A DNA stretch of 64,000 nt from Nostoc sp. HK-01 (lineage in GTDB: Bacteria; Cyanobacteriota; Cyanobacteriia; Cyanobacteriales; Nostocaceae). The notes under the pieces are model-generated. The model searched no databases. It had not been told where the DNA came from and worked only from the letters and a program-made list of their open reading frames with translations. Shown here one piece after another: positions 7,567 through 52,136 of the stretch; position 1 is the first letter of the stretch; each line of letters starts with the position of its first letter. The stretch lies in NCBI GenBank assembly GCA_003990705.1, contig AP018319.1, positions 372,001 to 436,000 of the forward strand. Direction: 5' to 3'. The translations under genes and the position numbers were made by a program.

Positions 7567-8487
7567 ATGATGAACACCCCACCCCATAAACGCAAAAAAA
7601 CCACCTCTACCTCACCACTCAACTCAGACATCACCCCTTCAGAAGATCCCGCTTCAGCAACTATCGACGTTCCCGCCGTTGAAGTACCAGAATTAACCGA
7701 AGATGAGCAACGCGATCGCTTGCACTTGAAACGCAAAGTCGAGAGGGCGTTTTTTGAAGCGGGTAAGGCTTTGGCAGAATTACGCGATCGCAGGTTATAC
7801 CGTTCCACTCACAAAACCTTTGAGGAATATTGCCGTGACAGGTTTGGTTACACGCGGATTGCCGCAAGTTATAAAATTGCTGCCGCCGCAGTTATGGATA
7901 ATTTGTTAACCAATGGTTTACAAAATTCAGAAATATCTCAAGCTGACCTACAAGTTTTTCCGACAAATGAACGTCAAGTCAGACCTTTGGTAGCTTTAGA
8001 ACCCCAACAACAGCAAGAAGCATGGCAGACCGCAGTGCAAGAAGCCAAGGGCAAAGTGCCGTCAGGACGCATTGTTAAAGATGTCGTACAAAGGATAATG
8101 GAGAGTACCAAAATACCCAACACCTACCAAATCGGTGAAGTCTGCCAAATTCTTGCAAAGGACAACCCAGAACTTAGGGGTAAAGGCGGCTGTTGGGCGA
8201 TTGTTAGCCAAGTGAATGACTTCAGTTGTACCGTGAGAACTTGGGATAAAGAACTGACGGTTGGAGTTCAGCATCTCAAGTCTTTCAATTATCTGCCCCA
8301 GGAATGCCAGCAGATGCAGGAAGTGTGCGATCGCCTTGCTCGAATATATTCTGATTCTCTGGAGGAGACAGTCAAAAATCTGTTGCAGTCGTTGGGAAAG
8401 CTGAACCGTCCTTATCTCACGGCGGTGGAAGAAAAGCTATTGAGTTTGATTGAGCGAGAATACAGTGTGATAAAAATATCACCATAG
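7567..8487 (+). CDS. 306-aa plasmid DNA-binding-like protein, copy A
   Basis: The N-terminus is Pro/Ser/Thr-rich and basic. Residues 45-110 (AFFEAGKALAELRDRRLYRS, TFEEYCRDRFGYTRIAASYK) resemble the helix-turn-helix region of DUF3102/ParB-type DNA-binding proteins. Residues 190-240 (GGCWAIVSQVNDFSCTVRTW, VGVQHLKSF) look like an SH3/KOW-like strand domain. The C-terminal 50 residues (EETVKNLLQSLGKLNRPYLT, EEKLL) form a helical tail. The paralogue at 38871-39791 is similar over its full length. Fragments of this gene are scattered through the window on the + strand. The presence of an RHH or XRE regulator just upstream suggests plasmid maintenance, but the function is unknown. Confidence 0.75.
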   Translation: MMNTPPHKRKKTTSTSPLNSDITPSEDPASATIDVPAVEVPELTEDEQRDRLHLKRKVERAFFEAGKALAELRDRRLYRSTHKTFEEYCRDRFGYTRIAASYKIAAAAVMDNLLTNGLQNSEISQADLQVFPTNERQVRPLVALEPQQQQEAWQTAVQEAKGKVPSGRIVKDVVQRIMESTKIPNTYQIGEVCQILAKDNPELRGKGGCWAIVSQVNDFSCTVRTWDKELTVGVQHLKSFNYLPQECQQMQEVCDRLARIYSDSLEETVKNLLQSLGKLNRPYLTAVEEKLLSLIEREYSVIKISP

Positions 8488-8625
8488 ACAGATGGGTATA
8501 AAGTGATTTTTGAAGATTATCTACTGAGGAGAGGCAAGCAACTAAATAGTTTGTGGCAAGAGCATTCAAGTCTTGCTTAGAATATAACAATTTCAGCAAT
8601 GTTTCTCAATTAACATGAGAATGCT

Positions 8626-9981
8626 ATGACCACACTTAACTTTTCTCAACACCAAATTCCCACAGTCCAAGATCTGCTGCGAGATGATACCCGCCTTGTA
8701 CCGCCGGTGTTGTTAGAGGAATCAGCACCTAATTTGGGAACCCAGGAAGTGGCGCGGGAAGTTTTTTTCTCTCAGGAATATCACGATATTGAGGTAGACA
8801 AACTTTGGAAGAAGGTATGGCAATGGGCTTGTCGTGAGGAGAATATTCCTGATGTCGGTGACTACATAGTGTATGACATTGCCGACCTATCAGTAATCGT
8901 TGTTCGTAGTAAGGCTAACGAAATCCGAGCATTCTATAACTCCTGCTTACACCGAGGCACAAAGCTGTGCCTTGAGGATGGTAACGTTCGGGCATTGCGG
9001 TGTCCGTTTCATGGTTGGACATGGAAACTCAATGGCACACTTGCTCATATTCCTTGCCAATGGGATTTTGAGCATATAGACGAGAATGACTTTAGTTTGC
9101 CAGAGGTGAAAGTAGCAACGTGGCAGGGTTTTGTATTTGTTAACTTTGATCCCAGTTGCGAACCATTAGAAGTTTATCTGGAAAATCTACCCGAACATTT
9201 TCAATATTTCCCGCTCAAAGATCGCTTTAGTGCAGGCCATGTAGCCAAAGTGATGCCAGCCAATTGGAAAGTGACACAAGAAGCGTTTATGGAAGCATAT
9301 CACTCAGTAGCAACTCATCCACAAATCTTGAAATTTACTGGTGATGTCAATTCGCAATACGATGTGTACGGTCGGCACAACCGGATGATTACACCTTTTG
9401 CAGTTCAGAGTCCGCATTTAGGTACTCAACTCGATCAACAAGCATTAGCCGAGGCACTAGCCGCTTTTGAAGGTGCTGATCTAGCAGAGGTAAAAGTGCC
9501 GCCTGGGGTAACGGCTCGTGCGTATGCGGCTGAGGGTGCAAGAGCTAAAATGTTGAATCAGCTTGGTGTTGACTGCTCAAAGTTCTCTGATACGGAAATG
9601 CTGGATGCCATTCAATACTTTATCTTCCCGAATTTTATGCCTTGGGTCGGTGTTGGCGCACCACTCCAGTATAGATTCCGACCAAATGGCAATGACCCGA
9701 ATTCTTGCATCATGGAAGTGCTACTGCTATTGCCATGTCCACCGCAGAATCGTCCACCAGCAGCCAAAACCCATTGGCTGACAGCCGATGAAAGCTGGAC
9801 TAATGCCCCACAGCTAGGAGGGCTGGGTGAAGTCTTCGATCAAGACACCTCGAACCTACGCCGCATCCAACAGGGTTTAAAGGCATCTGCAAAGTCTAGG
9901 ATTACGTTGGGCAGATACCAAGAGTCTCGTATCCGGCACTTCCACCAAGTTTTGTCACGTTACATCAACCATCCAGGCTAA
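8626..9981 (+). CDS. Rieske non-heme iron ring-hydroxylating oxygenase, alpha subunit
   Basis: A 451-residue protein with both iron centres visible. The Rieske [2Fe-2S] ligands are C107-x-H109 (SCLHRG) and C126-xx-H129 (RCPFHGWTW). The mononuclear iron ligands H226 and H231 lie in EAYHSVATHP. The length fits alpha subunits of aromatic ring-hydroxylating dioxygenases and related demethylases. No beta subunit, ferredoxin or reductase gene is adjacent, so electrons must come from a partner elsewhere. The substrate cannot be predicted. It stands alone between a full copy of the 306-aa gene and a tail fragment of that gene. Confidence 0.93.
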   Translation: MTTLNFSQHQIPTVQDLLRDDTRLVPPVLLEESAPNLGTQEVAREVFFSQEYHDIEVDKLWKKVWQWACREENIPDVGDYIVYDIADLSVIVVRSKANEIRAFYNSCLHRGTKLCLEDGNVRALRCPFHGWTWKLNGTLAHIPCQWDFEHIDENDFSLPEVKVATWQGFVFVNFDPSCEPLEVYLENLPEHFQYFPLKDRFSAGHVAKVMPANWKVTQEAFMEAYHSVATHPQILKFTGDVNSQYDVYGRHNRMITPFAVQSPHLGTQLDQQALAEALAAFEGADLAEVKVPPGVTARAYAAEGARAKMLNQLGVDCSKFSDTEMLDAIQYFIFPNFMPWVGVGAPLQYRFRPNGNDPNSCIMEVLLLLPCPPQNRPPAAKTHWLTADESWTNAPQLGGLGEVFDQDTSNLRRIQQGLKASAKSRITLGRYQESRIRHFHQVLSRYINHPG

Positions 9982-10019
9982 TTTATTGACCACTAGTAAG
10001 CTCTAAGTTAAACAATCAA

Positions 10020-10146
10020 ATGTATTCGAGTGGACTGGAGGAATCAGTGCAGAGGTTTTTGGAGTCGTTGGGAAGCTGAAGCGGAGTTATCTAAGTGCTT
10101 TGGAAGAAAAAGTTTTAAAGCTGTTGGAGTCGGAAATCAGAAATTA
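10020..10146 (+). pseudogene. 3' fragment of the 306-aa gene, frameshifted
   Basis: The sequence aligns with the last 120 bp of the 306-aa gene: GGACTGGAGGAATCAGTGCA followed by GGAGTCGTTGGGAAGCTGAA and TTGGAAGAAAAAGTT. One G is missing near 10072 relative to copy B, which shifts the frame after SLG. It starts about 40 bp after the Rieske gene stop. No upstream part of the family gene is present. Confidence 0.85.
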
Positions 10147-10180
10147 ATTCAACAAAGAAATAATGCAACAATCCTGTAGC

Positions 10181-32995: not shown

Positions 32996-33023
32996 AATTC
33001 CCTCCGATAGACGCATGAAAGAG

Positions 33024-33785: not shown

Positions 33786-33944
33786 AGTACTGTTTCTCCT
33801 GGAATTGAGATCATGACAACCATGTGTTTAAAGAGTTGTTTTAAGTTTTGAAAAGAATACGGAATTTTGTGAGCAATTGTGTATAAATAAACAACCTATT
33901 TTCCTCCTGCAATCGTGGCGCTTTTGTGTACGGTTGCTTTTTAC

Positions 33945-34020
33945 TTTTTCACCAGCCGCATCCCCTTCTTGTTACTGAAAGCCCCAGCCTGAGAGAGTGC
34001 TGCTGTAATGTTGTTGGGTG
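33945..34020 (-). pseudogene. Frameshifted tail relic behind the 252-aa gene
   Basis: On the minus strand the +1 frame reads TSPNNITAALSQAGAFSNKK GMRLVKK-stop, matching the end of the 294-aa paralogue (THPNPAAALKKAGAFSKK). It follows the stop of the 252-aa gene at once, so that gene has probably lost its original C-terminus through a frameshift or replacement. Confidence 0.65.
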
Positions 34021-34025
34021 ATGTA

Positions 34026-34784: not shown

Positions 34785-34825
34785 AGTTTTAGTTGTGTGA
34801 TGAGTAGAGAGTATTGAGTTGGGAG

Positions 34826-35284
34826 TTAAACATTCACCCGCACTAAGTCTTCTTCCCGCACCAAAGAAAAGCGATTGGTGGTGATGAGTGGTTGTTTAAA
34901 AGTAGGTAATGCCAATTCCACCAGATAGAACCAGGACTTTTCGATTAACTCAATCCCCAGAATTAACCTTTGCTTTGTGCCGTGATTGGGAATTTTCAAC
35001 AGTACGCGCTGTCCCAACACGAAAGAAGGTTTTTTCACAGTTCTGGGTTGTATATTACCCGTGGCAATAATTTGATGTTTAGTTACATAAATGAAATCAT
35101 TTTTGATCTCAATCACGTAATTCCAGCAATCGCCATACCACTGCACACCCAAGCAGTAGCCGAATGTCCGATTGGGTTTGAGGTAAACTTTCTCTAACAC
35201 ATTGACTTCAACAGGTGGAATTTGATTACGCCACGGTGGTGAGAGAAACCAACATCTTTCTAAATCTGTGATTTGTTCTGTCAT
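34826..35284 (-). CDS. Conserved plasmid protein of unknown function, 152 aa (paralogue of 5509-5967)
   Basis: The same length and the same ordered blocks as the module A copy are seen (LERCWFLSPPWRNQIPPVEV, RTFGYCLGVQW, FVLGQRVLLKIPNHGTKQRL). Its ATG overlaps the stop of the 93-aa regulator gene upstream by 4 bp, so the two are translationally coupled. No domain recognised. Confidence 0.7.
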   Translation of the reverse strand: MTEQITDLERCWFLSPPWRNQIPPVEVNVLEKVYLKPNRTFGYCLGVQWYGDCWNYVIEIKNDFIYVTKHQIIATGNIQPRTVKKPSFVLGQRVLLKIPNHGTKQRLILGIELIEKSWFYLVELALPTFKQPLITTNRFSLVREEDLVRVNV

Positions 35285-35562
35285 ACTGTTTTACCCAACA
35301 AATAATTAATAGCTTCGGAATCTAAAGATGCAATTCGTTGTTTGATTTGATGTGGTGGGTTTTCGAGAAATTGTCTGAGATTCCCTGGTTTGACTTGATA
35401 ATATTTGGGACAACTTTGATTTGCCTTGAGCCAACCTCTTTGAATCCAATGGCGAACAGTTAATAAATTCAGCGAAAGAATACTGGCGATTTGATGGCAG
35501 GTATAATTTTCTGGATTAGTTAAAGTTTTAGTCATGTCGCTTTGCTCCAATTCAAAATTCAA
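35281..35562 (-). CDS. Excisionase/MerR-like helix-turn-helix protein, 93 aa
   Basis: Residues 18-62 (YTCHQIASILSLNLLTVRHW, IQRGWLKAN) form a helix-turn-helix of the excisionase/MerR type. The tail QRIASLDSEAINYLLGK is shared with the 132-aa neighbour, so the two genes arose by tandem duplication. A start at M10 (MTKTLTNPENY) is also possible. Likely a DNA-binding regulator of the module B operon. Confidence 0.72.
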   Translation of the reverse strand: MNFELEQSDMTKTLTNPENYTCHQIASILSLNLLTVRHWIQRGWLKANQSCPKYYQVKPGNLRQFLENPPHQIKQRIASLDSEAINYLLGKTV

Positions 35563-35568
35563 AAAAAG

Positions 35569-35967
35569 TCATAATTTCTTCCCTACAAGATAGTTAATGG
35601 CTTCAGGGTCAAGAGAGGCAATGCGTTTTTTGATAGGTTGTGGCGGATTGTCTAGAAACTCTTTGAGATGCCAAGTTCTAACTTGATAACAGCTTGCAGA
35701 ACGCTTGTTAGCTTTGAGCCATCCGTGCTTGATCCAACGACAGAGAGTAGATAAACTCAAGCAAAGGACGTTGGCAATTTCTTGGCAGCTATAGTTATCA
35801 AGTGTGGGGCGTGTAGAATAACCCAAACGATTTAACTTCAGCTTAATTGCCATAGTTGAGCGATGATAACCTTGCTTTTTTAACATCCTGGCTATCTGCT
35901 CTTTGGTGTAAAAATCAGCCTTTTCTTCAAGAATGGCAATCTCTTCTTTAGACCATTTAGCACTCAT
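35569..35967 (-). CDS. Two-part helix-turn-helix protein, 132 aa
   Basis: Residues 1-50 (WSKEEIAILEEKADFYTKEQ, IARMLKKQGYHRS) look like a SANT/Myb-like helix bundle. Residues 58-132 (YSCQEIANVLCLSLSTLCRW, IKHGWLKAN) repeat the excisionase-like domain of the 93-aa gene 6 bp downstream. A GGAGG-type site precedes the start. A DNA-binding role is likely. Confidence 0.72.
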   Translation of the reverse strand: MSAKWSKEEIAILEEKADFYTKEQIARMLKKQGYHRSTMAIKLKLNRLGYSTRPTLDNYSCQEIANVLCLSLSTLCRWIKHGWLKANKRSASCYQVRTWHLKEFLDNPPQPIKKRIASLDPEAINYLVGKKL

Positions 35968-36028
35968 TTTATTACCTCCAACTTTTCATCTCAACAAGAG
36001 AAAAAGTGTTGTGAGAATATTAGGTTGT

Positions 36029-36229
36029 TTATGTTGCTTGAACTTCGCTAACAATTCGTGCGCTGATTGATTCAAAATCAACTTGAAAAATATTCAAATC
36101 AGTCTGCATTTGACCTGTGTTATAAAGGTCTACTATTTGCTGTTTGATAACTTCTTTAGTTAACTCATCTGGTATTTCAATGTGAGCTTCGCTTGTGATT
36201 CTTTCAACTACTGTGACAATGACTCTCAT
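36029..36229 (-). CDS. Small conserved plasmid protein, 66 aa (intact form of the IS-split gene)
   Basis: MRVIVTVVERITSEAHIEIP and LNIFQVDFESISARIVSEVQ match both halves of the IS903-interrupted gene at 2856-4156. The predicted structure is strand, loop, helix, then strand; no known domain was recognised. Its conservation in two modules supports it being a real gene. Confidence 0.7.
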   Translation of the reverse strand: MRVIVTVVERITSEAHIEIPDELTKEVIKQQIVDLYNTGQMQTDLNIFQVDFESISARIVSEVQAT

Positions 36230-36518
36230 GCGATAACCCTGTATAGTTAATCGAGGTAGATAGGAATAAAAAGAGACATGGGTGCAGAGTGTAAAATTTA
36301 AGGGTGAAGTATTTTTACTCCTGCCCCAAGTCTTTTTTCTTTACTTCAAGGTATTCCAGCCTTTGATGCTGATAGAGATTAGACCTAATTTGATTTAGTT
36401 ACTCATTCCTTAACCTCCAAACTTACGGAGTATGTAACAATTGGTTTGTTGTAGAAATATCTACTTAATTCCCTTAGCAATTACCTGAATGCAAATCCTT
36501 ATTCAGGTAATTACTTCC
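36230..36518. other. Intergenic region with no recognised gene
   Basis: About 290 bp separating the 66-aa and 68-aa genes in the leftward series. No frame, hairpin or repeat of note was seen. Confidence 0.4.
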
Positions 36519-36725
36519 TCAATCTAAACTCTCAGTTAAAACTAAAGGCTGTTGATTATCTTCTAGTTCGCATTTCAAATATGAGAGTGCTGTTTGAGCA
36601 TCCCCAATGGTTAAATCAGGGAGATAATCGAGTGCTTGATAATCTGGGTGTAGTTCAATCTGAGATATCAAATATTTGGCAGATTCAACTAATAGCAATA
36701 AATCTGGTAAATCCATTTGAGTCAC
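36519..36725 (-). CDS. Hypothetical protein, 68 aa
   Basis: An acidic, helical small protein (LPDLLLLVESAKYLISQIEL, IGDAQTALSYLKCELED). It begins 12 bp after the stop of the 65-aa gene upstream in the same direction, and an AAGGAAGTGACT context gives a plausible ribosome-binding site. Unrecognised. Confidence 0.5.
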   Translation of the reverse strand: MTQMDLPDLLLLVESAKYLISQIELHPDYQALDYLPDLTIGDAQTALSYLKCELEDNQQPLVLTESLD

Positions 36726-36737
36726 TTCCTTGTTTAG

Positions 36738-36935
36738 TTAAAACTTCTCGACAACTGCCAACAAAAAGCCGTGTCCAGTGTTCTTGATTTGCACCTGTTT
36801 CTTGTCCAACAAATACTGAATGATGGTTTGCGAAAACTGAATCCTGTGCAGAGGAATCGCACCACCCGAACCTTTGAGCGATTGCAGTAGTCTTGCAGCA
36901 GTTCTTTCCACGTAACAATCGACAACTTTAGCCAT
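36738..36935 (-). CDS. Hypothetical protein, 65 aa
   Basis: The start is taken at ATG 36935 (MAKVVDCYVERTAARLLQSL), which overlaps the stop of the upstream gene by 8 bp and suggests translational coupling. The rest (IQFSQTIIQYLLDKKQVQIK) is helix followed by strand. Two other frames are open here, but this one fits the operon spacing. Unrecognised. Confidence 0.5.
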   Translation of the reverse strand: MAKVVDCYVERTAARLLQSLKGSGGAIPLHRIQFSQTIIQYLLDKKQVQIKNTGHGFLLAVVEKF

Positions 36936-37251
36936 CGTTTGACCCTCCAATTGCTGCTAATTGCTGTTGCAATACTTTAATTTGCTGCTGATGTTCTTCA
37001 ATCTCTGCTTGCAATTGCTCTTGTATCTCTGCGACAGAAAGCGTTTGGATTTGGTCATCAGAGTAATGGCGGACTTCATCTGAATGTTTGTCGGGCAGTA
37101 CTGTATACCGCCAAGAATTACCGTATTCATGGGCTAATTGTGTTCCAGCAGGTTTGTACTCTAAACCGATGACTATGCCCTGCTGAGTCCGTTGACCGAA
37201 GGTGAATCTGGGGTATTCCCAGCCGGTTGGAATGCTGATGGTGGGTTGCAT
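36928..37251 (-). CDS. Hypothetical protein with C-terminal coiled coil, 107 aa
   Basis: The start is at MQPTISIPTGWEYPRFTFGQ (37251); the open frame goes 15 codons further. Residues 1-60 look beta-rich (GIVIGLEYKPAG, YGNSWRYTVL). Residues 68-103 form a Gln/Glu-rich coiled coil (EIQEQLQAEIEEHQQQIKVL). Part of the leftward module B operon. Unrecognised. Confidence 0.6.
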   Translation of the reverse strand: MQPTISIPTGWEYPRFTFGQRTQQGIVIGLEYKPAGTQLAHEYGNSWRYTVLPDKHSDEVRHYSDDQIQTLSVAEIQEQLQAEIEEHQQQIKVLQQQLAAIGGSNDG

Positions 37252-37386
37252 AGATTTGTTGATGGTTGAAGGGATGGGTGAGCAATTGGGACACAATTAC
37301 TGAGGCTTGCCCCAATTGCAGGTGGTTATATTTGGAACTGGTAAATCATTGGATAAAGTTAGTGGGTATAAAAGCCTACTATTTCT

Positions 37387-38172
37387 CTACGCCGCGACCA
37401 ATTCCTCCACTGGCTCAAATTCCATCAAAAGCCGCCATTCCTGTTGACTGAGTTGGTCAAATGGTCTGTTTAACAATTCATCCCAATCCAAAACTTCAGC
37501 CACCAACAGCATTTGCATGGCTTCATCCACCGAATCACACGCTACCTTCTGCCCTTCTGAAACAGCCCGGATGAACCACCAATGACCATCTGTAAAACCA
37601 ACTTCGCCCAGTTTCTCGCCATCGCTGGTGTAAATCCCGTCATCTAGCAGTTCTAAACCATATTTCTCGCATTCGGTGGCAATTTGGAACATGATTTCAT
37701 TGCCTGTGCTGGCGGGTGTTTCCTGTTCTTGTACTGGCAGTGAGCCGTCTTTGTAATGGATGCGAATGTAGCGATCGCACATCATTGGGGTAGCAGCACG
37801 AAATACTTCTGCATTATTGATCGTCACTACCCAAGGCTGAGTGAGGTCATTGTCATAGTCGATGGTAGCTATCAATCTGTCAAGGGCGTAATATTCGTGG
37901 TGGTAAAAAGATATTTCGCTTACTGTCAATTCTTCAGGAGCGATCGCGTTTGCTTGGTCTGCGATGTATTGGTTGAACTCGCCTTGAGCTATGTCCTGCT
38001 CGTCAACCTTCTGAAGTTTGCTTTCTTGGTATCGAGCGATCGCACTCCTCCACGAATCCTTGCATCGTCTGTCGTTTACTTCGACTGTGCAGCCGATTTC
38101 GCTGTAGATGCGCTTTAGCTGGTCTAGGGATTTGCAGCGTAGCTGTTGTTGGGTATAAATTGGATGTGTCAT
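37387..38172 (-). CDS. Plasmid protein with N-terminal SAP-like segment, 261 aa (paralogue of 6093-6932)
   Basis: The first gene of the module B leftward operon. QQLRCKSLDQLKRIYSEIGC at the N-terminus, LTVSEISFYHHEYYALDRLI and YDNDLTQPWVVTINNAEVFR in the middle, and GLELLDDGIYTSDGEKLGEV toward the end match the module A paralogue in order. A HIP1-containing hairpin lies 38 bp upstream. Its divergent neighbour is an XRE regulator. Function unknown. Confidence 0.72.
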   Translation of the reverse strand: MTHPIYTQQQLRCKSLDQLKRIYSEIGCTVEVNDRRCKDSWRSAIARYQESKLQKVDEQDIAQGEFNQYIADQANAIAPEELTVSEISFYHHEYYALDRLIATIDYDNDLTQPWVVTINNAEVFRAATPMMCDRYIRIHYKDGSLPVQEQETPASTGNEIMFQIATECEKYGLELLDDGIYTSDGEKLGEVGFTDGHWWFIRAVSEGQKVACDSVDEAMQMLLVAEVLDWDELLNRPFDQLSQQEWRLLMEFEPVEELVAA

Positions 38173-38209
38173 TATGTTGATACTCCATCTGTATGGTGGA
38201 TGTTTTGCA

Positions 38210-38250
38210 AAAGGCGATCGCTGCTCCGGCCAAGAAACGCGGTCGCCTTT
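38210..38250. promoter_or_regulatory. HIP1-containing hairpin in the leader of the 261-aa gene
   Basis: AAAGGCGATCGC (38210-38221) and GCGGTCGCCTTT (38239-38250) pair over 12 bp with one mismatch, followed on the + strand by GTTTTTGTTT. The arms are almost the same as those at 61760-61800. Confidence 0.65.
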
Positions 38251-38382
38251 GTTTTTGTTTGTTCACAGCACTTTTGGCTGTTGAAGAGAACTTGTGATAT
38301 TGAGGCGTATAAAATACGCTTCAATATTTAATATCTTATTTTTTATAGTAAAACTTGTCAAGCGAAACTAGAAGAGTTACGC

Positions 38383-38411
38383 TTGAAACGTGAGGAAAGA
38401 AACGCTATAAT
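38383..38411 (+). promoter_or_regulatory. Sigma70-type promoter for the XRE gene
   Basis: TTGAAA (38383-38388) and TATAAT (38406-38411) are separated by exactly 17 bp and lie 29 bp before the XRE start codon. This is the best consensus promoter noticed in the window. Confidence 0.75.
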
Positions 38412-38439
38412 CCGAGTACATTAATGGAGGCGTGAATTT

Positions 38440-38694
38440 ATGAACTTAATGCAAGTTACTCTGTCTGTTGATCTGCCTGGGTTAGGCAAACGAATTAGAG
38501 ACATTCGTGAGGCTAAAGGATTATCACCAACATGGGTTGCAGCACAAGCAGGTATGAGTGTTGCTAACCTTTACCGTATTGAAAGTGAAGATGCAAAATC
38601 TCTACCCCGTGAAACTTTGCGGAAACTGTCTGAAGCTCTTGATGTAGATTTTGATGCAGAGGTAAAAGCTGCTTTAGCCCAAGAAGTTGGATAA
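38440..38694 (+). CDS. XRE-family helix-turn-helix regulator, 84 aa
   Basis: Residues 12-75 (GLGKRIRDIREAKGLSPTWV, AAQAGMSVANLYRIESE, LRKLSEALDVDF) form a complete Cro/CI-type HTH domain. ATGGAGGCG gives a good ribosome-binding site. The gene faces away from the 261-aa operon, the same position the RHH regulator has in module A. It probably controls both directions. Confidence 0.9.
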   Translation: MNLMQVTLSVDLPGLGKRIRDIREAKGLSPTWVAAQAGMSVANLYRIESEDAKSLPRETLRKLSEALDVDFDAEVKAALAQEVG

Positions 38695-38870: not shown

Positions 38871-39791
38871 ATGAACTCCCCACCCAATAAGCGCAAAAAA
38901 GCCACCTCTACCTCACCACTCAACTCAGACATCTCCCTTTCAGAAAACCCAGCTTCAGCAACCATCGACGTTCCCGCCGTTGAAGTACCAGAATTAACCG
39001 AGGATGAGCAACGCGATCGCTTGCACTTGGAACGGAAGGTCGAGAGGGCGTTTTTTGAGGCTGGTAAAGCATTGGCAGAATTACGCGATCGCAGACTGTA
39101 CAGATCCACTCATCGCACATTTGAGGAATACTGCCGTGATAGATTTGGGCATAGTCGGCAACAGTCAAACTATTTGATTGCCGCAGCTGGTGTTTATGAA
39201 AATCTGACAACCAATGGTTGTCAAAATGTAGCGGACGAAAATTTGACAACCAATGGTTGTCAAATTCTACCAACGAGTGAACGACAAGTTAGACCCTTGG
39301 TTCCTTTGACAGTGGAGGAACAACTTACCTGTTGGCAGTCCGCAGTCAAAGAAGCGGGTGGTAAAGTGCCAACTGGCCGCATCGTTAAGTACGTTGTGCA
39401 AAAAATTATGGAGCGTACCAAATTACCCAACAGCTACCAGATAGGTGAAGTATGCCAAATCTTAGCCAAGGATAACCCAGAGCTTAGGGGTAAGGGAGGC
39501 TGTTGGTGTATAGTGGTTGCTGTCCATGAGTTCAGTTGCACTGTAAAGCTTTGGGATGGTGAACTGGTGGTTGGGGTGCAGCATCTGAAGTCGTATGATT
39601 ACTTGCCTGATGAATGTCAGCAGATGCAACAGATGAGCGATCGCATTTCACGGGTGTATTCTACTGAACTGGAGGAAACAGTCAAAAATCTGTTGCAGTC
39701 GTTGGGGAAGGTCAATCGGCCTTATCTTACGGCGGTTGAGGAGAAGCTGTTGAGTGTTATTGAACAAGAATCTGAGATTAATAAAAGATGA
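38871..39791 (+). CDS. 306-aa plasmid DNA-binding-like protein, copy B
   Basis: Matches copy A (7567-8487) over its full length. The helix-turn-helix-like block TFEEYCRDRFGHSRQQSNYL, the GGCWCIVVAVHEFSCTVKLW domain and the tail EETVKNLLQSLGKVNRPYLT are all present. Between them, ENLTTNGCQ occurs twice in tandem (about residues 112-130), apparently a short internal duplication absent from copy A. It is followed 109 bp later by the TPR-CHAT gene. Function unknown; possibly plasmid maintenance. Confidence 0.75.
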   Translation: MNSPPNKRKKATSTSPLNSDISLSENPASATIDVPAVEVPELTEDEQRDRLHLERKVERAFFEAGKALAELRDRRLYRSTHRTFEEYCRDRFGHSRQQSNYLIAAAGVYENLTTNGCQNVADENLTTNGCQILPTSERQVRPLVPLTVEEQLTCWQSAVKEAGGKVPTGRIVKYVVQKIMERTKLPNSYQIGEVCQILAKDNPELRGKGGCWCIVVAVHEFSCTVKLWDGELVVGVQHLKSYDYLPDECQQMQQMSDRISRVYSTELEETVKNLLQSLGKVNRPYLTAVEEKLLSVIEQESEINKR

Positions 39792-39900: not shown

Positions 39901-42900
39901 TTGAGGCTGAAGATGAACGGGTGTGTAAAGTCTCAGTGGTTGTTTCGGTGTCTACCAAAATGGAAAGGTTACAGTTTAATTGTATTACTGAGTATAGTTT
40001 TGCTATCTGATTCAGTCAGTGCAATATCGACGAACGAAGGCTTGCAAGTAGTACAGCAGCCAGAGACAACATTACAGCAATTACCGCCTGATGCTGGTGC
40101 AGCGATACAACAAGCTAATGAAGCAAGACAGCTAGAGGAAGAGGCCAAAAAACTTTCCCAGCAAGGCACAGAAGAATCTCAAAAGCAAGCGATCGCTAAA
40201 TATGAAGCAGCATTGCAAATCTGGCATAAGCTAGGAGATCGCAATTCTGAAGCTAATACAATCACAAGCATCGCTTTCCTTTATGTTTCGCACAATGATT
40301 ATCAAAAGGCATTGGAATATTATAATCAGGCACTAGCGCTCACGCGTGAACTGAAAGATCAAATTGCGGAAGCTGATGCGCTCAAATATGTTGCTGAAAC
40401 TTACTTTAATTTAGGTGAAACCCAAAAAGCACTTTCATATTACAACCAAGCGCTGTCATTATTTCACGTTCTTAAACAACCTGACTTAGAAGCATATACA
40501 CTGATTGGCATTGGCGGAGTATACAAAAACTTGGGTGAGACGCAAAAGGCTTTAGATTCTTACAACCAAGCACTGAAAATTAGACGTGAGCAGAAAGATT
40601 TGGCTGGACAAGCTCAAACTCTTGAAGTTATTGGTTCTCTCTACACTGATTTGAGCGAATCTCAAAAAGCTTTAGAAGCTTTCCATCAAGCACTAGAAAT
40701 CCGACGTGCAATGAAGAATTTGACTGGGCAAGCCAACATTCTCGATAATATTTCTACAGTCTACGCTTCTTTGGGGCAGTATAATAAAGCATTAGACTTA
40801 TCACAGCAAGCGTTAGAGTTACAACGACAAGCGCAAAAACACCTTTCGGGGCAAGACCTTCAACTTAATTTAATTTATCAAGCTGGAATTCTCAGTGGAA
40901 TAGCTTCAAGTTATTTTGTATCAGGTGAATTTCAGAAAGCATTAGATTACGAGAATCAAGCACTGGTGCTTTATCAGAAGGCAGGTCTTCGTAGTGGAGA
41001 AGCTTATAAACTGAGCACTATTGGGGCAGCCTACGGCAGTTTAGGTGAAACTAACAAAGCACTAGATTTTCTCAACCAAGCATTGCAACTTCACCGTGAC
41101 ATACAAGATCGTACAGGAGAAAACGGGACTTTAAGGGCAATTGCTGAAATCTATAAATTATCTGGTAATTATCAGCAAGCACTAGAGTTTTACAACCAAG
41201 CACTGATTATTAGTCGTCAAGTAAGCAATCCTACTCAAGAAGCCTCTACGCTATTTGATACAGCTTCAGTTTATAATTGGTTAGGCGAATATAAATTAGC
41301 TATTGAAACTTACAACCAAGCACTAAATATTTTCCAACAAATAGGCGTTCACGCTAGTGAAGCTCAGACTCTAGGTGAAATAGGCGATGTTTACCGAGCA
41401 GCAGAAAATTATCCCAAAGCCCTAGACTATTACAACCAGTCTCTAGGATTGTCACGAAAACAGGGAAATTTTCTGAATGAGTTCAGTGTGCTTATAGGCA
41501 GTGTTAGAGTTTACGAAGCATTAAAGAATTATCCTAAAGCTTTTGATGTGGCTAATCAAGTGCTGGCTTTGTCACGTCAACAAAAAAACAGCCTCAATTC
41601 AGAAACCACAAGTCTTGCCTTATTGGCTAGAGTTCATCAAGCATCAGGTAATTACCAAAAAGCGTTAGATTTGTTCACTCAGGTAGCTGCTGAGTTCCAC
41701 AAGTTGGGACAACCGTATTCAGAAGCTAACGTCTTGGGCAACATTGGCACAGCTTACGAATCATTAAAACAACCTCTGAAGGCGATCTCTACTTATAAGC
41801 AAGAATTAAAACTGTGGCAAAAATTAGGTTATCGTGCAAATGAAGCATACGCATTCTATGAGATTGCCGTTACACAAAGAGATAGAGGCAATCTCAAATC
41901 TGCCTTGACAAATATAGAAGCAACAATTCAAATTTTTGAACAAATACGTAGCCAAGTTACTAGTCAAGAATTACGTACTTCGTACTTTGCCAAAGTCCAT
42001 CAGTACTACCAGTTTTATATCGATTTGCTAATGCAATTGCACAAACAAAATCCATCAAAAGGCTACAACGCATTAGCTCTTCATATCAGCGAACGCTCCC
42101 GCGCCAGAAGTTTATTAGAACTATTAACCGAAGCCAATGCCAAAATCCGTAAAGGTGTTGACCCCAAATTATTAGCACAAGAACAAAGTCTGCAAGAACA
42201 AATTGATGCAATAGCTAAACTGCGCCAAGATTTTATCAATAAATCAGCACCCGCCACCGCAGTCCAAAAACTTGAACAACAAATCACCAATCTCTTGAGC
42301 CAATACCAACAACTACAAACAAAAATTCGGACAACTAGCCCTAAATATGCGGCACTAAAATATCCTGACCCTTTAAAATTGCCACAAATTCAGCAACAAC
42401 TTGATTCAGATAGCGTGCTGTTGCAATATTCCTTGGGTAAAGAACACAGTTATCTTTGGGCTGTGACTCCTAATTCTCTAGACAGCTATGAACTCCCGCC
42501 ACAAGACCAGATAGAAAAAGCCGCAGATGATTTTCGCCAAAATTTGGTAAAACCATTCGCCTCTGATCAACAACAAGTAACAACTGCAAAACAGCTTAGT
42601 CAAATTATCCTCGCTCCAGTCGCCAACAAGTTAGCAAATAAACGTTTGGTAATTGTCGCGGATGGGGCTTTACAAAATATTCCCTTTGCAGCCTTAACTG
42701 AACCAACTGCTCCAGAATATCAACCACTGTTAGTTAACCACGAAATTGTCAATCTTCCTTCCGCTTCAACTATCGCCATCCTCAGACAAGAAACACAAAA
42801 TCGTCCTAAAGCACCCAAAGCTCTTGCTATTCTTGCAGATCCTGTATTTAGTGCTGATGATTCACGGATGACTCTTAAACCAGAGAGTAATTCCATTACT

Positions 42901-43542
42901 CCTGAATTAGAGCTACAGCGTTCTGCACTCTCCCGGTCAGCCAGAAATCTCAACCGCAACGGTTGGGACAGATTAACTGGAACTCGTGAAGAAGCGCAAG
43001 CAATTCTCAAACTTGGTTCACCAAAAGCCAGCCTAGCCGCATTTGATTTTGATGCTAATTATAACTGGGTAACAAACCCCCAACTGAGCCAATATCGTGT
43101 GATTCACCTAGCTACTCACGGTTTTGCTGATGACGCTAATCCAGAGTTATCAGGTATTGTACTTTCACTAGTAGACAAAGTTGGTAAACCACAAAGGGGG
43201 TATCTGCGGTTAAACGATATCTTCAACCTGGATTTTCCGGCAGATTTAGTTGTGTTGAGTGCTTGTGAAACTGGACAGGGAAAAGAAATTCAAGGGGAAG
43301 GACTAGTAGGTTTAACAAGAGGACTGATGTATGCAGGTTCACCGAGAGTTGTCGTGTCTTTATGGAGTGTGGATGATCAGGGAACAAAAGAATTGATGAC
43401 CCAGTTTTACCGCCAAATGTGGCAGCAGGGGAAATCGCCTGTTGCAGCCCTCAGAGCCGCACAACTAAGTTTATGGCAAAATCCCGATTGGCGTAAACCT
43501 GTGTATTGGGCGGCTTTTACTCTCCAAGGGGAGTGGCGATAG
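39901..43542 (+). CDS. Secreted TPR-CHAT protein, about 1210 aa
   Basis: A signal peptide-like stretch SLIVLLSIVLLSDSVSA lies near residues 25-41. The start is TTG 39901 or, more likely, ATG 39913. Residues 100-700 hold about 15 tetratricopeptide repeats (KALEYYNQALAL type). Residues 740-830 are coiled coil. Residues 860-1213 form a CHAT caspase-like domain with H1073 in IHLATHGFAD and C1122 in VLSACETGQG, the expected catalytic pair. CHAT proteases act in signalling, toxin or defence systems, but this secreted form is common in Nostoc with no known substrate. No partner gene is adjacent. Confidence 0.9.
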   Translation: MRLKMNGCVKSQWLFRCLPKWKGYSLIVLLSIVLLSDSVSAISTNEGLQVVQQPETTLQQLPPDAGAAIQQANEARQLEEEAKKLSQQGTEESQKQAIAKYEAALQIWHKLGDRNSEANTITSIAFLYVSHNDYQKALEYYNQALALTRELKDQIAEADALKYVAETYFNLGETQKALSYYNQALSLFHVLKQPDLEAYTLIGIGGVYKNLGETQKALDSYNQALKIRREQKDLAGQAQTLEVIGSLYTDLSESQKALEAFHQALEIRRAMKNLTGQANILDNISTVYASLGQYNKALDLSQQALELQRQAQKHLSGQDLQLNLIYQAGILSGIASSYFVSGEFQKALDYENQALVLYQKAGLRSGEAYKLSTIGAAYGSLGETNKALDFLNQALQLHRDIQDRTGENGTLRAIAEIYKLSGNYQQALEFYNQALIISRQVSNPTQEASTLFDTASVYNWLGEYKLAIETYNQALNIFQQIGVHASEAQTLGEIGDVYRAAENYPKALDYYNQSLGLSRKQGNFLNEFSVLIGSVRVYEALKNYPKAFDVANQVLALSRQQKNSLNSETTSLALLARVHQASGNYQKALDLFTQVAAEFHKLGQPYSEANVLGNIGTAYESLKQPLKAISTYKQELKLWQKLGYRANEAYAFYEIAVTQRDRGNLKSALTNIEATIQIFEQIRSQVTSQELRTSYFAKVHQYYQFYIDLLMQLHKQNPSKGYNALALHISERSRARSLLELLTEANAKIRKGVDPKLLAQEQSLQEQIDAIAKLRQDFINKSAPATAVQKLEQQITNLLSQYQQLQTKIRTTSPKYAALKYPDPLKLPQIQQQLDSDSVLLQYSLGKEHSYLWAVTPNSLDSYELPPQDQIEKAADDFRQNLVKPFASDQQQVTTAKQLSQIILAPVANKLANKRLVIVADGALQNIPFAALTEPTAPEYQPLLVNHEIVNLPSASTIAILRQETQNRPKAPKALAILADPVFSADDSRMTLKPESNSITPELELQRSALSRSARNLNRNGWDRLTGTREEAQAILKLGSPKASLAAFDFDANYNWVTNPQLSQYRVIHLATHGFADDANPELSGIVLSLVDKVGKPQRGYLRLNDIFNLDFPADLVVLSACETGQGKEIQGEGLVGLTRGLMYAGSPRVVVSLWSVDDQGTKELMTQFYRQMWQQGKSPVAALRAAQLSLWQNPDWRKPVYWAAFTLQGEWR

Positions 43543-43589: not shown

Positions 43590-43781
43590 AGTGCGATCAC
43601 ATCAGCCGAATGTATTCTGATTCGCTCTTTGGAGACAGTCAAAAATCTGTTGCAGTTGCTGGGAAAGCCCAAGCGTCCTTATCTGACTGCTTTGGACGAG
43701 AAATTGCTAGTGCTTCTGGAGTTGGAGTACAGAAATAAGCCACCAAACGTGTTTAGCACTCTCAACATTGCCCCAAATTGA
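43590..43781 (+). pseudogene. 3' fragment of the 306-aa gene behind the TPR-CHAT gene
   Basis: The frame contains SLETVKNLLQLLGKPKRPYL and EKLLVLLELEYRNK, matching the last 45 residues of the 306-aa family. The match starts near GTGCGATCAC (43590), about 50 bp after the CHAT stop. A 91-codon frame (43506-43781) covers it, but its first part overlaps the CHAT gene and is not conserved. Confidence 0.85.
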
Positions 43782-48111: not shown

Positions 48112-48861
48112 ATGAAAAAACTGGAAGGAAAAATCGCCCTTGTCACGGGTGGCAACAGTGGTCTCGGTCTTGCCACAGCCAAACAGTTTGTTGCTGAAGG
48201 AGCCTATGTCTACATTACAGGTCGTCGCCAAGCCGAACTGGATGCTGCTATAGAAGCCATTGGTAAAAATGTTACGGCTGTGCAGAGTGATGTTTCTAAT
48301 CTGGCAGACCTTGATCGTCTGTTTGCCACCATTAAGCAAGAGCAAGGACACCTCGATATCATCTTCGCTAATGCTGGCGGTGGACAAATTGCCCCACTTG
48401 GAGAAATTACTGAGGAACACTTTGACAAAACATTCAACACAAACGTCAAAGGTTTGCTGTTCACAGTACAAAAGTCACTGCCACTGTTGCCAGAGGGTGC
48501 TTCTATTATTTTGAATGCTTCGATTACTTCTATAAAAGGTACGCCAGCTTTCAGTGTTTACAGTGCTACCAAAGCTGCCGTGAGATCGTTTGCTCGGAAT
48601 TGGATACTCGACCTCAGAGAACGCAAGATCCGAGTGAATGCCATTAGCCCTGGTGTGGTTCCGACTCCTGGTTACGATCATTTGGGACTAAATGACCAGC
48701 AGTTGCAAGAATTTGTGGACAGCCAAGCCAGCAGCATTCCACTAGGACGAGTCGGTACACCCGATGAGATTGCCAAAGCGGTTGTTTTTCTGGCTTCAGA
48801 TGACAGCAGCTTTGTGAACGGGATTGAGTTATTTGTTGATGGCGGTATGGCACAGATTTGA
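48112..48861 (+). CDS. Short-chain dehydrogenase/reductase
   Basis: A 249-residue classical SDR. The cofactor motif is [10 protein letters not shown] near residue 13, NAG appears in FANAGGGQ near 88, and the catalytic Ser-Tyr-Lys set is NASITS and YSATKAA near 139-160. The Arg in ITGRRQ after the second strand suggests NADP preference. Substrate unknown. It is followed 20 bp later by a short tail fragment of the 306-aa gene. Confidence 0.92.
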
Positions 48862-48880: not shown

Positions 48881-48973
48881 ATGAAGCTGAAGTGGGCTTA
48901 TTTGACAGTTTTAGAGGAGAAAGTGTTAAGTATTCTAGAGTCTGAATATGGGAGTAAAATAACGCGGTTGTAA
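48881..48973 (+). pseudogene. Short 3' fragment of the 306-aa gene behind the SDR gene
   Basis: The 30-codon frame MKLKWAYLTVLEEKVLSILE SEYGSK corresponds to GKLNRPYLTVVEEKLLSVLE at the end of the 306-aa protein. AGGAG lies 8 bp before the ATG, so it might even be translated. It starts 20 bp after the SDR stop. Confidence 0.75.
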
Positions 48974-49065: not shown

Positions 49066-49545
49066 ATGAACAGACTCCTAACAAGTTACAAAGATGCTGA
49101 GTTTGGACAGATTGTAATCAAAGATAACCACTGGACTTTAGAACAATCTGCGGTTTTGGGCGATCGCCGTGTACCGATTTGCGTGGATTTTGAACAGGGG
49201 CAGATTGGGGAACTTTCATCACTTCAGCGTGAAGCTATTCGGCAAGCTCTAACTTTGCCAGCCGATGTGTTAGGCATCACTGCTCCTGTTGTGCTGCAAA
49301 ATTATGATGTATATCGTGAGATGATTGGAGATCAGGAAATGCCGCCGTTGGCTAATCCCATTCACGTCTGGGATCAGGTTACTTTCTCATATATTTATGT
49401 GCCACCCCATGTTGAGTATGAACTGGATACTCCTACCTTTGAGTTGATAGCTGAGTGTGACTGGGAGCCAGAACACGGACTAGAAGTACGCTTTCGCAAT
49501 GGAGTAGCAATGGAGGCAGATCAGATAGGTGAAACAGGACGCTAA
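49066..49545 (+). CDS. Hypothetical protein, 159 aa (DUF6985-like pattern)
   Basis: Contains FGQIVIKDNHWTLEQSAVLG and VPICVDFEQGQIGELSSLQR near the start, then VWDQVTFSYIYVPPH and LIAECDWEPEHGLEVRFRNG toward the end. The latter pattern resembles DUF6985, a group often near polymorphic toxin immunity genes; this is a weak match. It stands alone, followed by a tail fragment of the 306-aa gene. Confidence 0.6.
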   Translation: MNRLLTSYKDAEFGQIVIKDNHWTLEQSAVLGDRRVPICVDFEQGQIGELSSLQREAIRQALTLPADVLGITAPVVLQNYDVYREMIGDQEMPPLANPIHVWDQVTFSYIYVPPHVEYELDTPTFELIAECDWEPEHGLEVRFRNGVAMEADQIGETGR

Positions 49546-49599: not shown

Positions 49600-49779
49600 G
49601 AGGTCTGGCTAACAGCAAGCCGAAGAGCGCGTCTACGCATTACTCAAATATATTCTGATTCTCTGGAGGAGACAGCCAAAAATCTGTTGCAGTCGTTGGG
49701 GAAGCTGAACCGTCCTTATCTTACGGTGGTGGAAGAGAAGTTGTTGAGTGTTCTGGAGTCTGAATATAAAGAAAGATAA
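49600..49779 (+). pseudogene. 3' fragment of the 306-aa gene behind the 159-aa gene
   Basis: The frame reads RITQIYSDSLEETAKNLLQS and LGKLNRPYLTVVEEKLLSVL, almost identical to the last 50 residues of copy A, and ends in TAA 49777-49779. It starts about 70 bp after the 159-aa gene. The first codons carry the dispersed GCAAGCCGAA/GTCTACGC repeat found in several other copies. Confidence 0.88.
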
Positions 49780-49949: not shown

Positions 49950-50366
49950 ATGGCAGCTAAAGATATATTTCACGCTGCTGTTAGACAAGCGTTGATTAAA
50001 GAACAGTGGGTAATTACAGCCGACCCACTTGTAATTAAAATTAATAAAGTGAAGCTAGAAATTGATTTAGCAGCAGAGAAAATCTTTGCTGCCCAGAAAG
50101 CGGGGCGAAAAATTGCAGTTGAGGTCAAAAGCTTTGTCAGCAGTTCAGTAATTTCCGACTTTCATTTAGCTTTGGGTCAGTTTTTGAACTATCGACTGGC
50201 TCTACAAATGAAAGAACCCGATAGAATAATTTATTTAGCAGTACCACTCGATACTTTTAACTCTTTCTTTCAAGAAATATTTGTTCAAGAAGCTATAAAG
50301 ATTTATCAACTCAAGCTAATTGTCTATGAGCCAAATAAGGAGGAAATTGTTGAATGGAGAGAATAG
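49950..50366 (+). CDS. xisH: XisH-family protein
   Basis: A 138-residue protein beginning MAAKDIFHAAVRQALIKEQW. KVKLEIDLAAEKIFAAQKAG and KIAVEVKSFVSSSVISDFH follow, the D...ExK arrangement of the XisH endonuclease-like family. XisH and XisI were first known as factors for excision of the fdxN element in Anabaena, but many copies exist away from any such element. The xisI start overlaps its end by 13 bp. Confidence 0.93.
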   Translation: MAAKDIFHAAVRQALIKEQWVITADPLVIKINKVKLEIDLAAEKIFAAQKAGRKIAVEVKSFVSSSVISDFHLALGQFLNYRLALQMKEPDRIIYLAVPLDTFNSFFQEIFVQEAIKIYQLKLIVYEPNKEEIVEWRE

Positions 50367-50689
50367 AATTTTATCGTCAATGTATCCGAGACTTATTAAC
50401 AAAAGAAGCTACTTTAAATGAGAAAAACTCTAACGTTGAATCTCAGTTAGTTTTTGATACAGAACATGACCATTATCAGTTAATAGATATAGGTTGGGAA
50501 AATTTGAACCGGATTTATAACTGTTTTATTCATATAGATATTAAAGATAGCAAAATCTGGATTCAGCATAATATGACGGATGTAGATTTAGCCCTTAAAC
50601 TTGTGGAGATGGGAGTGGCAAAAGAAGAAATTGTGTTAGGGTTGCATCCACCTTATAAGCGTCCTCATACCGGGTACGGTGTGGCGTGA
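50354..50689 (+). CDS. xisI: XisI-family protein
   Basis: A 111-residue protein with IEFYRQCIRDLLTKEATL, LVFDTEHDHYQLIDIGWEN and KIWIQHNMTDVDLALKLVEM, the usual XisI sequence blocks, ending in the ILGLHPP-like VLGLHPPYKRPHTGYGVA. It is translationally coupled to xisH. A fragment of the 306-aa gene follows directly. Confidence 0.93.
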   Translation: MERIEFYRQCIRDLLTKEATLNEKNSNVESQLVFDTEHDHYQLIDIGWENLNRIYNCFIHIDIKDSKIWIQHNMTDVDLALKLVEMGVAKEEIVLGLHPPYKRPHTGYGVA

Positions 50690-50732
50690 AAAGTTCAGAG
50701 AGTGAACGCTGATCCCCAGTCTTTACCAAAAA

Positions 50733-50935
50733 GCGTGAAATCTGCTAAATTTTTTGAGCGCAGGAAAACCCCGAACTGGGGGGTAGAGGCGGTTGCTGGG
50801 CGATTATTAGGCGGGTAAATGACTTTAGCTGCACCGTGAGAACTTGGGATGGAGAACTGACGGTTGGGGTGCAGCATTTGAAGTTTTATGAGTATCGGAC
50901 TGATGAATGCCAGCAGATGTGGGTGATTTGTGATA
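50733..50935 (+). pseudogene. Middle fragment of the 306-aa gene behind xisI
   Basis: GAGGCGGTTGCTGGGCGATT, TGCACCGTGAGAACTTGGGA and GAATGCCAGCAGATG match bases 8180-8320 of copy A at high identity, but the frame is broken by several indels. The upstream part still resembles the EVCQILAKDNPEL region. The fragment ends near GATACCTGACGGTAAGCCG, the dispersed repeat seen in the other copies. Confidence 0.8.
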
Positions 50936-51032: not shown

Positions 51033-51581
51033 CTTTGAGCTATTGCTCCACTGCGTTCTTGTAATTCGCCAATTTACTTCGCTCCAACCTCGGTTGTCCA
51101 TCCATGTGGAACCTGGACGGATGGTAACTACTTCTGCTCCCATCCACTCTGCCAACCGAGCGATTCGCACGTTTGCACTGACTGTAAAACCAGAGATCAC
51201 TTCTAGCCTGAGTTCCTTAAATCCGAAGTCGAGCAAGGCGCGTCCAACCTCGATTGCGTAGGCATATCGCCCCCAATAGTCTGGCGCAAGTTCAATCCCC
51301 AGTTCCATTTCACCTGCATCATACCCCTTTGAACGCAGTCCGCAACAACCGACAAGCGCGTAAGGTTCATGCCGTGGGACAATCGCCAGCTGGTAGTTAA
51401 GTCTCGGCTGCTCACAAGCCCATGTGCAAAATGTCTCAAACAAACGTGCTGAATTTTCTGGACTAGTTTCGTCCTTTTGAGAAAATACTTGAGTGCGTGG
51501 ATCTGCTTGATAGTTTAGGAATGACGATCTGTCTAACTCAACGAAATCACGCAGTAAAAATCTCTTGGTCACTATCTCCAT
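51030..51581 (-). CDS. GNAT-family (RimJ/RimL type) acetyltransferase
   Basis: A 183-residue protein with TKRFLLRDFVELD at the start, ALVGCCGLRSKGYDAGEMEL near residue 74, ELAPDYWGRYAYAIEVGRAL near 96 and FTVSANVRIARLAEWMG near 131. These are the strands and acetyl-CoA loop of RimJ/RimL-type N-acetyltransferases. Substrate unknown. It is the only minus-strand cargo in the 48-54 kb stretch. Confidence 0.9.
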   Translation of the reverse strand: MEIVTKRFLLRDFVELDRSSFLNYQADPRTQVFSQKDETSPENSARLFETFCTWACEQPRLNYQLAIVPRHEPYALVGCCGLRSKGYDAGEMELGIELAPDYWGRYAYAIEVGRALLDFGFKELRLEVISGFTVSANVRIARLAEWMGAEVVTIRPGSTWMDNRGWSEVNWRITRTQWSNSSK

Positions 51582-51740
51582 ATAAATAGCTAAATAGTTT
51601 ATAAGGTTTTAATTGGATAGTTACTTGGTGTGAGTGGTAAGCATGAATTGGCGGATTGGAATGATGAGCTTCACAACTTCTTAAAGTATCGGGCAACTGG
51701 GAACAACCCGAAACCTAGTTTTTGATATGTAAAACGTGCT

Positions 51741-51815
51741 GTTACTCGTATAGGAGAGTTTAGCTGTACAGTAACAGCTTGGGAAGGCAAATGTAGTGTT
51801 GGGGTAGCGATGAGG
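51741..51815 (+). pseudogene. Middle fragment of the 306-aa gene upstream of the EF-hand gene
   Basis: The frame reads IGEFSCTVTAWEGKCSVGVA, corresponding to VNDFSCTVRTWDKELTVGVQ in copy A. It is short and diverged, so it seems older than the others. Confidence 0.7.
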
Positions 51816-51905
51816 AATAAGTGATTAAGTTCTTCCTAACTGTGCTTGTGTCTTTGTCAAAATTTTGAGATATTAAGTTGAAAAAATTAATTCAGATAAA
51901 AAATT

Positions 51906-52136
51906 ATGGCAACCCAGCAAGAACTTCAATCTCTTTTTAATACCTTAGATACCGATCAAGATGGCAAAATTTCTATAAATGAGCTTTTTTTTAGCCCTGG
52001 CTTAAGCGCAATCATCTCAGCCGAAACAGGTGTCAGTAGCCCCCAGGAATTACTAGCTATGTATGGAGATAAAGACGGTAGTATCACCTTTGAAGAGTTG
52101 AAACAAGTTGTTGAGTCAGCTGGAAATTTAAACTAG
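51906..52136 (+). CDS. Small EF-hand calcium-binding protein, 76 aa
   Basis: Two EF-hand loops are visible. The first is DTDQDGKISINE (residues 16-27), a perfect 12-residue calcium loop. The second is YGDKDGSITFEE, which lacks the first acid (Y in place of D) if counted from D-K-D. The size and arrangement resemble the calcium sensor EF-hand (CSE) proteins of heterocyst-forming cyanobacteria, though this link is from memory of family layout only. Confidence 0.85.
   Translation: MATQQELQSLFNTLDTDQDGKISINELFFSPGLSAIISAETGVSSPQELLAMYGDKDGSITFEELKQVVESAGNLN

Follow-up and report, generated by a model that had tools for sequence, protein, structure and literature searches.

A ParT-like gene at the backbone-cargo border of Nostoc plasmids is repeatedly followed by cargo genes and fragments of itself

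Background

In integrons, cassettes that mostly hold one gene each are lined up in order next to a fixed platform, and a repeated element separates the cargo genes. An arrangement that resembles them in these respects was found in a 64,000-nt stretch of Nostoc sp. HK-01 (contig AP018319.1, positions 372,001-436,000; this whole stretch is called the window below), in which full copies of a gene for a 306-amino-acid (306-aa) protein are followed by cargo genes and by fragments of the same gene. The window lies on the 485-kb contig C2 of a genome of eight contigs, among them also C3 (312 kb). The Nostoc arrays differ from integron cassettes in that the repeated element is a coding relic with a variable start and the cargo occurs in both orientations; the integron integrase model (IntI, TIGR02249) gave 15 weak matches in the HK-01 genome, none of them over the cut-off.

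A second likeness is to the orphan arrays of the contact-dependent inhibition (CDI)/Rhs systems. According to PMC3150448, a full gene is followed there by copies of its 3' part that are truncated at the 5' end and accompanied by a companion gene each, and orphan modules serve as the main module in other strains. Truncated, displaced copies behind a full gene are also found in Nostoc. The CDI/Rhs tips are unrelated toxins with immunity genes, whereas in Nostoc the 3' parts, and hence the C-termini, are homologous, the gene belongs to the plasmid backbone and the cargo is unrelated; neither toxin tips nor immunity genes were detected with Pfam in the window cargo and 20 of the 76 cargo open reading frames (ORFs).

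The gene itself recalls ParT of the Streptomyces plasmid SCP2, a ParB-like protein without the CTPase domain that has its 18-bp parS site within its own coding sequence, and for which homologues in the Cyanobacteriota have been reported (PMC12260392). The ParB-like layout and the inverted repeat in the coding sequence are shared; the Nostoc gene differs in that no ParA gene stands beside it in the window and in that it may contain one to five palindromes. Cargo arrays and tails are not mentioned in the available part of that text. Recombination linked to HIP1 (GCGATCGC) in cyanobacteria, including their plasmids, is the subject of reports cited in PMC4390886, and HIP1 is found near some of the junctions described here, the difference being that 22 of 30 junctions are not at HIP1. 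Our literature search, of partial coverage (listings and abstract openings, with most subscription journals outside it), returned no description of such arrays. We refer to the 306-aa gene as the address gene; the name presumes a function for which partition, incompatibility and silencing would be candidates.

Results and discussion

Full copies and fragments in the window

A DNA profile built from 88 full genes was run over the whole window and over the 94 stretches introduced below. The matches, with the cargo genes identified by domain match, are as follows.

7567..8487, + strand: second full copy, joined to a partial second backbone (about 5093-6932); DNA profile match 7575-8462
8626..9981, + strand: cargo, Rieske oxygenase
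10013..10136, + strand: 3' tail, profile 747-871, DNA profile E 4e-23
38871..39791, + strand: full copy, ParT-like address gene, joined to an intact CyRepA1 backbone; DNA profile match 38878-39771
39901..43542, + strand: cargo, TPR-CHAT protein
43591..43729, + strand: 3' tail, profile 735-872, start at a HIP1-like site, DNA profile E 6e-28
48112..48861, + strand: cargo, SDR
48883..48948, + strand: short 3' tail, profile 807-872, DNA profile E 2e-10
49066..49545, + strand: cargo, 159-aa DUF6985 protein
49636..49766, + strand: 3' tail, profile 742-872, short repeat at the HIP1 position, DNA profile E 4e-35
49950..50689, + strand: cargo, xisH and xisI
50695..50934, + strand: internal fragment, profile 506-741, end at the HIP1 position, DNA profile E 4e-45
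51740..51805, + strand: internal fragment, profile 612-677, DNA profile E 1.5e-5

A first-pass annotation of the window had listed two full copies and seven fragments, all on the + strand. Both full copies and six of the fragments are recovered as described; the piece at 50975 has no firm support from either the protein profile (E 0.2) or the DNA profile (E 0.002). The same annotation placed four 3' tails each behind a different gene and a middle fragment behind xisI, and both observations hold. The tails start 32 bp behind the stop of the Rieske gene, 49 bp behind that of the TPR-CHAT gene, 22 bp behind that of the SDR gene and 91 bp behind that of the 159-aa gene, and the larger internal piece (50695-50934) lies directly behind xisI. 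The whole genome of HK-01 contains 15 family matches at E<=0.01, which are confined to C2 and C3 and are all on the + strand.

Recurrence on related plasmids

The comparison set of 94 stretches consists of the window, the own plasmids C2 and C3, four annotated Nostoc plasmids and 79 genome loci (numbered with the prefix L) taken from the best 80 of 407 relatives in a genome collection. These loci were picked for holding a near-full gene, so that the count of full genes reflects this choice, and loci from different strains are partly dependent on one another. A protein profile identified 157 family members (90 full genes, 42 3' tails, 18 middles and 7 heads); reversed-sequence decoys of the 94 stretches gave no match at E<0.01, against 67 real non-full members.

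The architecture is general: the same gene is repeatedly followed by cargo and then by a fragment. Members at the same locus share one strand in 97 of 101 pairs, and 35 of the 42 tails lie on the same strand as, and downstream of, the nearest full gene (four lie upstream and three are in stretches without a full gene). Downstream sequence of at least 5 kb was available for 63 full genes, of which 31 are followed by a family fragment within that distance (24 tails, 5 middles, 2 heads). When one genome per genus was taken for 24 genera of the Nostocaceae, a match was found in 15, and the genus-level survey of Nostoc gave a match in 9 of 11.

The first intervals behind full genes (n=35, median 976 bp) contain one ORF in 19 cases, two in 8 and three in 2, and the other 6 are empty, as counted mechanically for ORFs of at least 60 aa; 26 of these ORFs are on the + and 15 on the - strand. 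Pfam searches of 20 of the 76 cargo ORFs identified GST, GNAT, lipoxygenase, 2OG-Fe oxygenase, Coq4, AhpC-like, phospholipid methyltransferase and STAND-WD40 proteins, while several ORFs had no Pfam match; none of the 20 was a recombinase.

The border of the replication backbone

On CyRepA1-type Nostoc plasmids the address gene is the last gene of the replication backbone and stands at the border between backbone and cargo. In the window the backbone that precedes the intact copy occupies the following segment.

29681..38694, unstranded: backbone with CyRepA1 replication protein, AlkB-like protein (2OG-Fe oxygenase), DUF1392, several unknowns and a helix-turn-helix (HTH) regulator

In all four annotated Nostoc plasmids the gene follows an HTH regulator and has DUF1392 upstream, and in three of them CyRepA1 and the AlkB-like gene are also present; in one plasmid insertion sequences separate the HTH gene from the address gene. 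The downstream content is different in each: an AAA ATPase with a two-component system, a methyltransferase with a helicase, Hen1/Pnkp RNA repair, and a type I-D CRISPR-Cas system.

Fragments at this border are specific to the address gene. The 624 kb that lie within 10 kb downstream of full genes contain 37 fragments of it, at 31 loci and all on the same strand, against a single fragment of nine other backbone genes taken together, a contrast that is strongest for the well-detected genes (p261, DUF1392 and p122 are near-full upstream in 66, 39 and 39 cases, respectively). General decay of backbone copies would not readily yield this pattern.

Tails as displaced 3' ends of older genes

Comparison with other loci indicates that the tails are displaced 3' ends of older genes. 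Locus L069 has a full gene, a cargo gene for a 250-aa protein and a tail, and this tail with the following 2.9 kb corresponds to the intact gene and downstream DNA of L093 (88.8%). In L128, which contains three cargo units, the first tail with 0.9 kb of following DNA has counterparts in the intact genes of L076 (94.7%) and L137 (88.3%), and the third tail with 4.1 kb has one in that of L133 (90.2%). Altogether, an intact-gene counterpart with the same downstream DNA at another locus was found for 10 of 42 tails (9 of 40 non-edge ones), with an identity of 71-97% over 164 bp up to the comparison limit of 900 bp. For two tails (L120 and L122) the C-terminal part of the counterpart is of another type. 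Since the tails have such displaced counterparts, the newest cargo is likely to adjoin the full gene.

The same cargo units are found in different orders across loci, and the address gene is mosaic throughout. Among the pairs listed, genes with 92-98% identical downstream DNA can differ by 20-30% in their 5' part. A single dip at HIP1 in the correlation of distances between adjacent windows was considered as a mark of exchange and is uninformative, the gene being mosaic along its whole length.

The earlier proposal that cargo entered in cassette-like fashion at or near the 3' end of the gene is supported by its recurrence, by the gene-specific fragments and by the intact-gene counterparts of the tails; tail-bounded cargo, which had been suggested as something to look for on related plasmids, does recur there (24 of the 31 nearest fragments counted above are tails).

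A ParT-like protein with palindromes in its own gene

No convincing match to the address gene came from Pfam, PHROGs or NCBIfam, PDB sequences gave nothing below E 0.4, and the structure model of its product was poor (mean pLDDT 62.6). One indication of its nature is the presence of palindromes in the gene.

39205-39223 and 39240-39266, + strand: two perfect palindromes in the gene, putative parS-like sites
7902..7924, + strand: imperfect palindrome in the second full copy

Perfect palindromes of 17-27 bp, one to five per gene, are located just past the likely recognition helix in 55 of the 60 genes with anchor motifs (five have the anchors and no perfect palindrome, and the other 30 of the 90 full genes are without anchor motifs). 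With HIP1 excluded, 83 palindromes fall in the 4,572 nt of this region, against 5 in the 48,036 nt of remaining gene sequence. The palindrome half-site, moreover, tracks the 16-residue recognition region (Mantel r 0.76, P 0.0005, for the 55 of 90 genes), whereas the correlation is -0.01 for the stretch before this region and 0.24 for the 60 residues after it. In all 55 loci the own palindrome is absent from the rest of the fetched DNA. The five intact copies in the HK-01 genome (three on C2, two on C3) have five different palindromes, one of them imperfect and two similar to each other.

Three homologues on Streptomyces plasmids are recognised by the family profile at E 1e-18 to 1e-22. A ParA-type gene is found directly upstream of two of them, and the third stands at the start of its record; two of the three, closely alike, have a perfect palindrome at codon 118-119, compared with codons 115-129 in three of the own copies. 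No ParA-type gene was found beside the address gene in the window, and such genes are present elsewhere on C2 and C3. The gene thus looks like one for a ParT-type centromere-binding protein that carries its own binding palindromes, with the putative specificity module in its 5' half. When placed by the DNA profile, 43 of 47 non-edge tails begin beyond this palindrome module, and one further tail is part of a copy situated where a contig begins.

The pairs of palindrome and recognition helix (window 39205-39266 and the full genes of L062-L144) form a natural specificity set. The match between helix and palindrome within one coding sequence offers natural protein-DNA specificity pairs, with which the coexistence of several related plasmids in one cell becomes directly testable.

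A model for the stepwise addition of cargo

We consider it moderately probable that the gene is an address gene of which the 3' third serves as a landing pad for the stepwise addition of cargo. Related plasmids commonly carry a version of the gene, which would provide shared homology in its 3' third and in the DNA just after it, precisely at the backbone-cargo border. The incoming DNA would consist of the 3' part of such a gene and a cargo gene, in the simplest case as a circle derived from another plasmid and closed where the cargo end happened to become joined to the gene. On its left side the circle would cross over with the resident gene by homology. The resident 5' half with its address would then be retained, the gene would now end in the incoming 3' part followed by the cargo, and the old 3' end would be displaced downstream as a tail. 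Repeated rounds would produce arrays ordered by age, in which the newest cargo adjoins the full gene, and there may be selection against retaining a second address module. The best resolved junction away from HIP1, the right junction of L069, has an overlap of only 2 bp (by eye; L139 is donor-like and L093 target-like).

The tails may have been born short, from a circle with the 3' part only, or may have been shortened by later 5' loss from a displaced copy. The near lack of fragments of the neighbouring backbone genes favours the former, and the presence of several backbones on C2 keeps the latter viable. More broadly, and only tentatively, the arrays might represent a recombinase-free gene-cassette system in which a 5' specificity module is combined with a shared 3' landing pad, so that cargo is traded, the address is unchanged and an ordered record is left. 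Stepwise addition of this kind would account for the growth of large cyanobacterial plasmids by a few genes at a time, at a single spot and with no dedicated integrase, and it would provide both a readable record of past additions and an identity for an unannotated plasmid gene.

Points against the model and alternative explanations

Several observations weigh against this model. No circle was observed, and for 32 of the 63 full genes with sufficient downstream sequence the next 5 kb are free of fragments. One plasmid can hold intact copies with different palindromes, so that two address modules are not forbidden, and three of the 47 non-edge tails retain the palindrome module. Transposase genes occur within the arrays or close to them (in the window a DDE transposase gene at 44033-44863, right behind the tail at 43591, and another transposase gene at 3032-4000; insertion sequences also in the one annotated plasmid mentioned above), and insertion sequences may therefore drive some of the rearrangement. 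The excess of ends of shared blocks in fragments (16-20%, against 2.5-2.7% at random positions; 352 ends) is partly expected, because fragments are repeats. Finally, the left change points (38 informative among 331 pairs) are spread over the terminal part of the gene and the sequence beyond; combined with the variable right starts, this spread fits a crossover by homology on the left side and a join by chance on the right side.

The alternative that survives best, which we nevertheless regard as unlikely, is fusion of plasmids through the gene. Two complete copies would come to lie with cargo between them, and the displaced copy would lose its 5' half together with the second backbone by deletion, perhaps as a second address module is harmful. 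Contig C2 carries at least four CyRepA1-type backbone copies in various states, as though several plasmids had fused, and two heads on the own contigs (C2:83644 and C3:187409) are joined to backbones. Five near-full address-gene copies and two near-full CyRepA1 genes are also present in the 624 kb downstream of full genes, which counts for fusion and against the addition of 3' parts, and the start of most tails behind the palindrome module is in line with fusion as well. Random deletion should, however, leave fragments of the neighbouring backbone genes, and only the one was found against the 37 of the address gene, in a control of limited sensitivity that relied on the window's own proteins and detected some of them weakly even upstream (near-full HTH gene at 15 loci, p252 at 6). 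The first intervals, moreover, mostly hold one or two ORFs and not multi-gene cargo regions.

HIP1 and the junctions

A site-specific cassette system that uses HIP1 within the gene as its attachment site appears improbable to us, although some of the data point in this direction.

39637..39644, + strand: HIP1 (GCGATCGC) within the gene's 3' third; 83% of 88 full genes have it exactly at that column

Tail junctions were counted from the DNA-profile tail starts after clustering by upstream DNA, with the starts of L120, L131, L107, L098, L087 and L137 set by judgement. Of the 30 distinct junctions, eight fall within 15 bp around the HIP1 of the gene (scan P about 0.001), among them some of the hand-set starts and one cluster (L107 with L122) of which the second member has its start elsewhere. 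HIP1 is also kept where the encoded residue alternates between cysteine and serine (23 of the 24 serines there are encoded by AGC, against 14% of serine codons overall in these genes), the identity between L069 and L111 jumps at HIP1, and the HIP1-linked recombination cited above is a precedent. The remaining 22 junctions, however, are elsewhere, and only 1 of 38 left change points falls in the interval -155 to -125 around HIP1. Outside the family, 3 of 277 block ends are at HIP1 (1.1%, against 0.9% at random), which is no enrichment. The commonest HIP1 junction starts, by eye, about 9 bp upstream of HIP1, and the other continuations of the element that precedes it lack HIP1, so that HIP1 was not found on both partners in this one junction type examined. 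The lack of block-end enrichment, the spread of change points and the HIP1-free partner continuations lower HIP1 as a two-sided exchange site and leave at most a modest junction preference. The HIP1 starts of L003, the first tail of L128, L081 and the second tail of L109 were set aside as exchange points, since gene homology runs upstream of a repeat set in HIP1.

A constant boundary motif at the tails, also suggested by the first-pass annotation, was not borne out: GCAAGCCGAA occurs three times in the window, twice beside a tail, with similar short repeats inside a HIP1 palindrome at some junctions in other plasmids. Random breakpoints, which that annotation held would count against a cassette reading, are partly what is seen: the tail starts are spread over the gene, eight of the 30 distinct junctions being near HIP1.

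Ordinary decay of tandem duplicates unlinked to cargo, to which the stops in several fragments and the spread breakpoints might point, is very improbable in view of the 42 tails against 7 heads, the downstream DNA that tails share with intact genes elsewhere and the recurrence of cargo units in different orders.

Further observations

Short dispersed repeats at the HIP1 position are found in the full gene of L105, in L125 and L131 and at window 49615, and in one case such a repeat is in frame within a full gene. The tail at 49636-49766 (profile 742-872) and the later piece at 50695-50934 (506-741) complement each other at the HIP1 position. Their swapped order around xisHI is what a circle opened at HIP1 would yield; this is one case, and the two pieces are unequally diverged from the copy at 7567.

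A noncoding element of about 250 bp follows the stop of the gene in 25 full genes and one tail (e.g. L063, L068, L120 and L125). In many pairs it is far more conserved (92-98%) than the gene itself. Rfam gave no match to it in the five loci scanned, and its predicted fold is more stable than those of shuffled sequences (z -3.1).

The window also contains, at 21652-29519, a row of genes for DHQ-synthase-like, O-methyltransferase, ATP-grasp, D-Ala ligase-like and MFS proteins, which presumably resembles a mycosporine-type sunscreen cluster, here on a plasmid.

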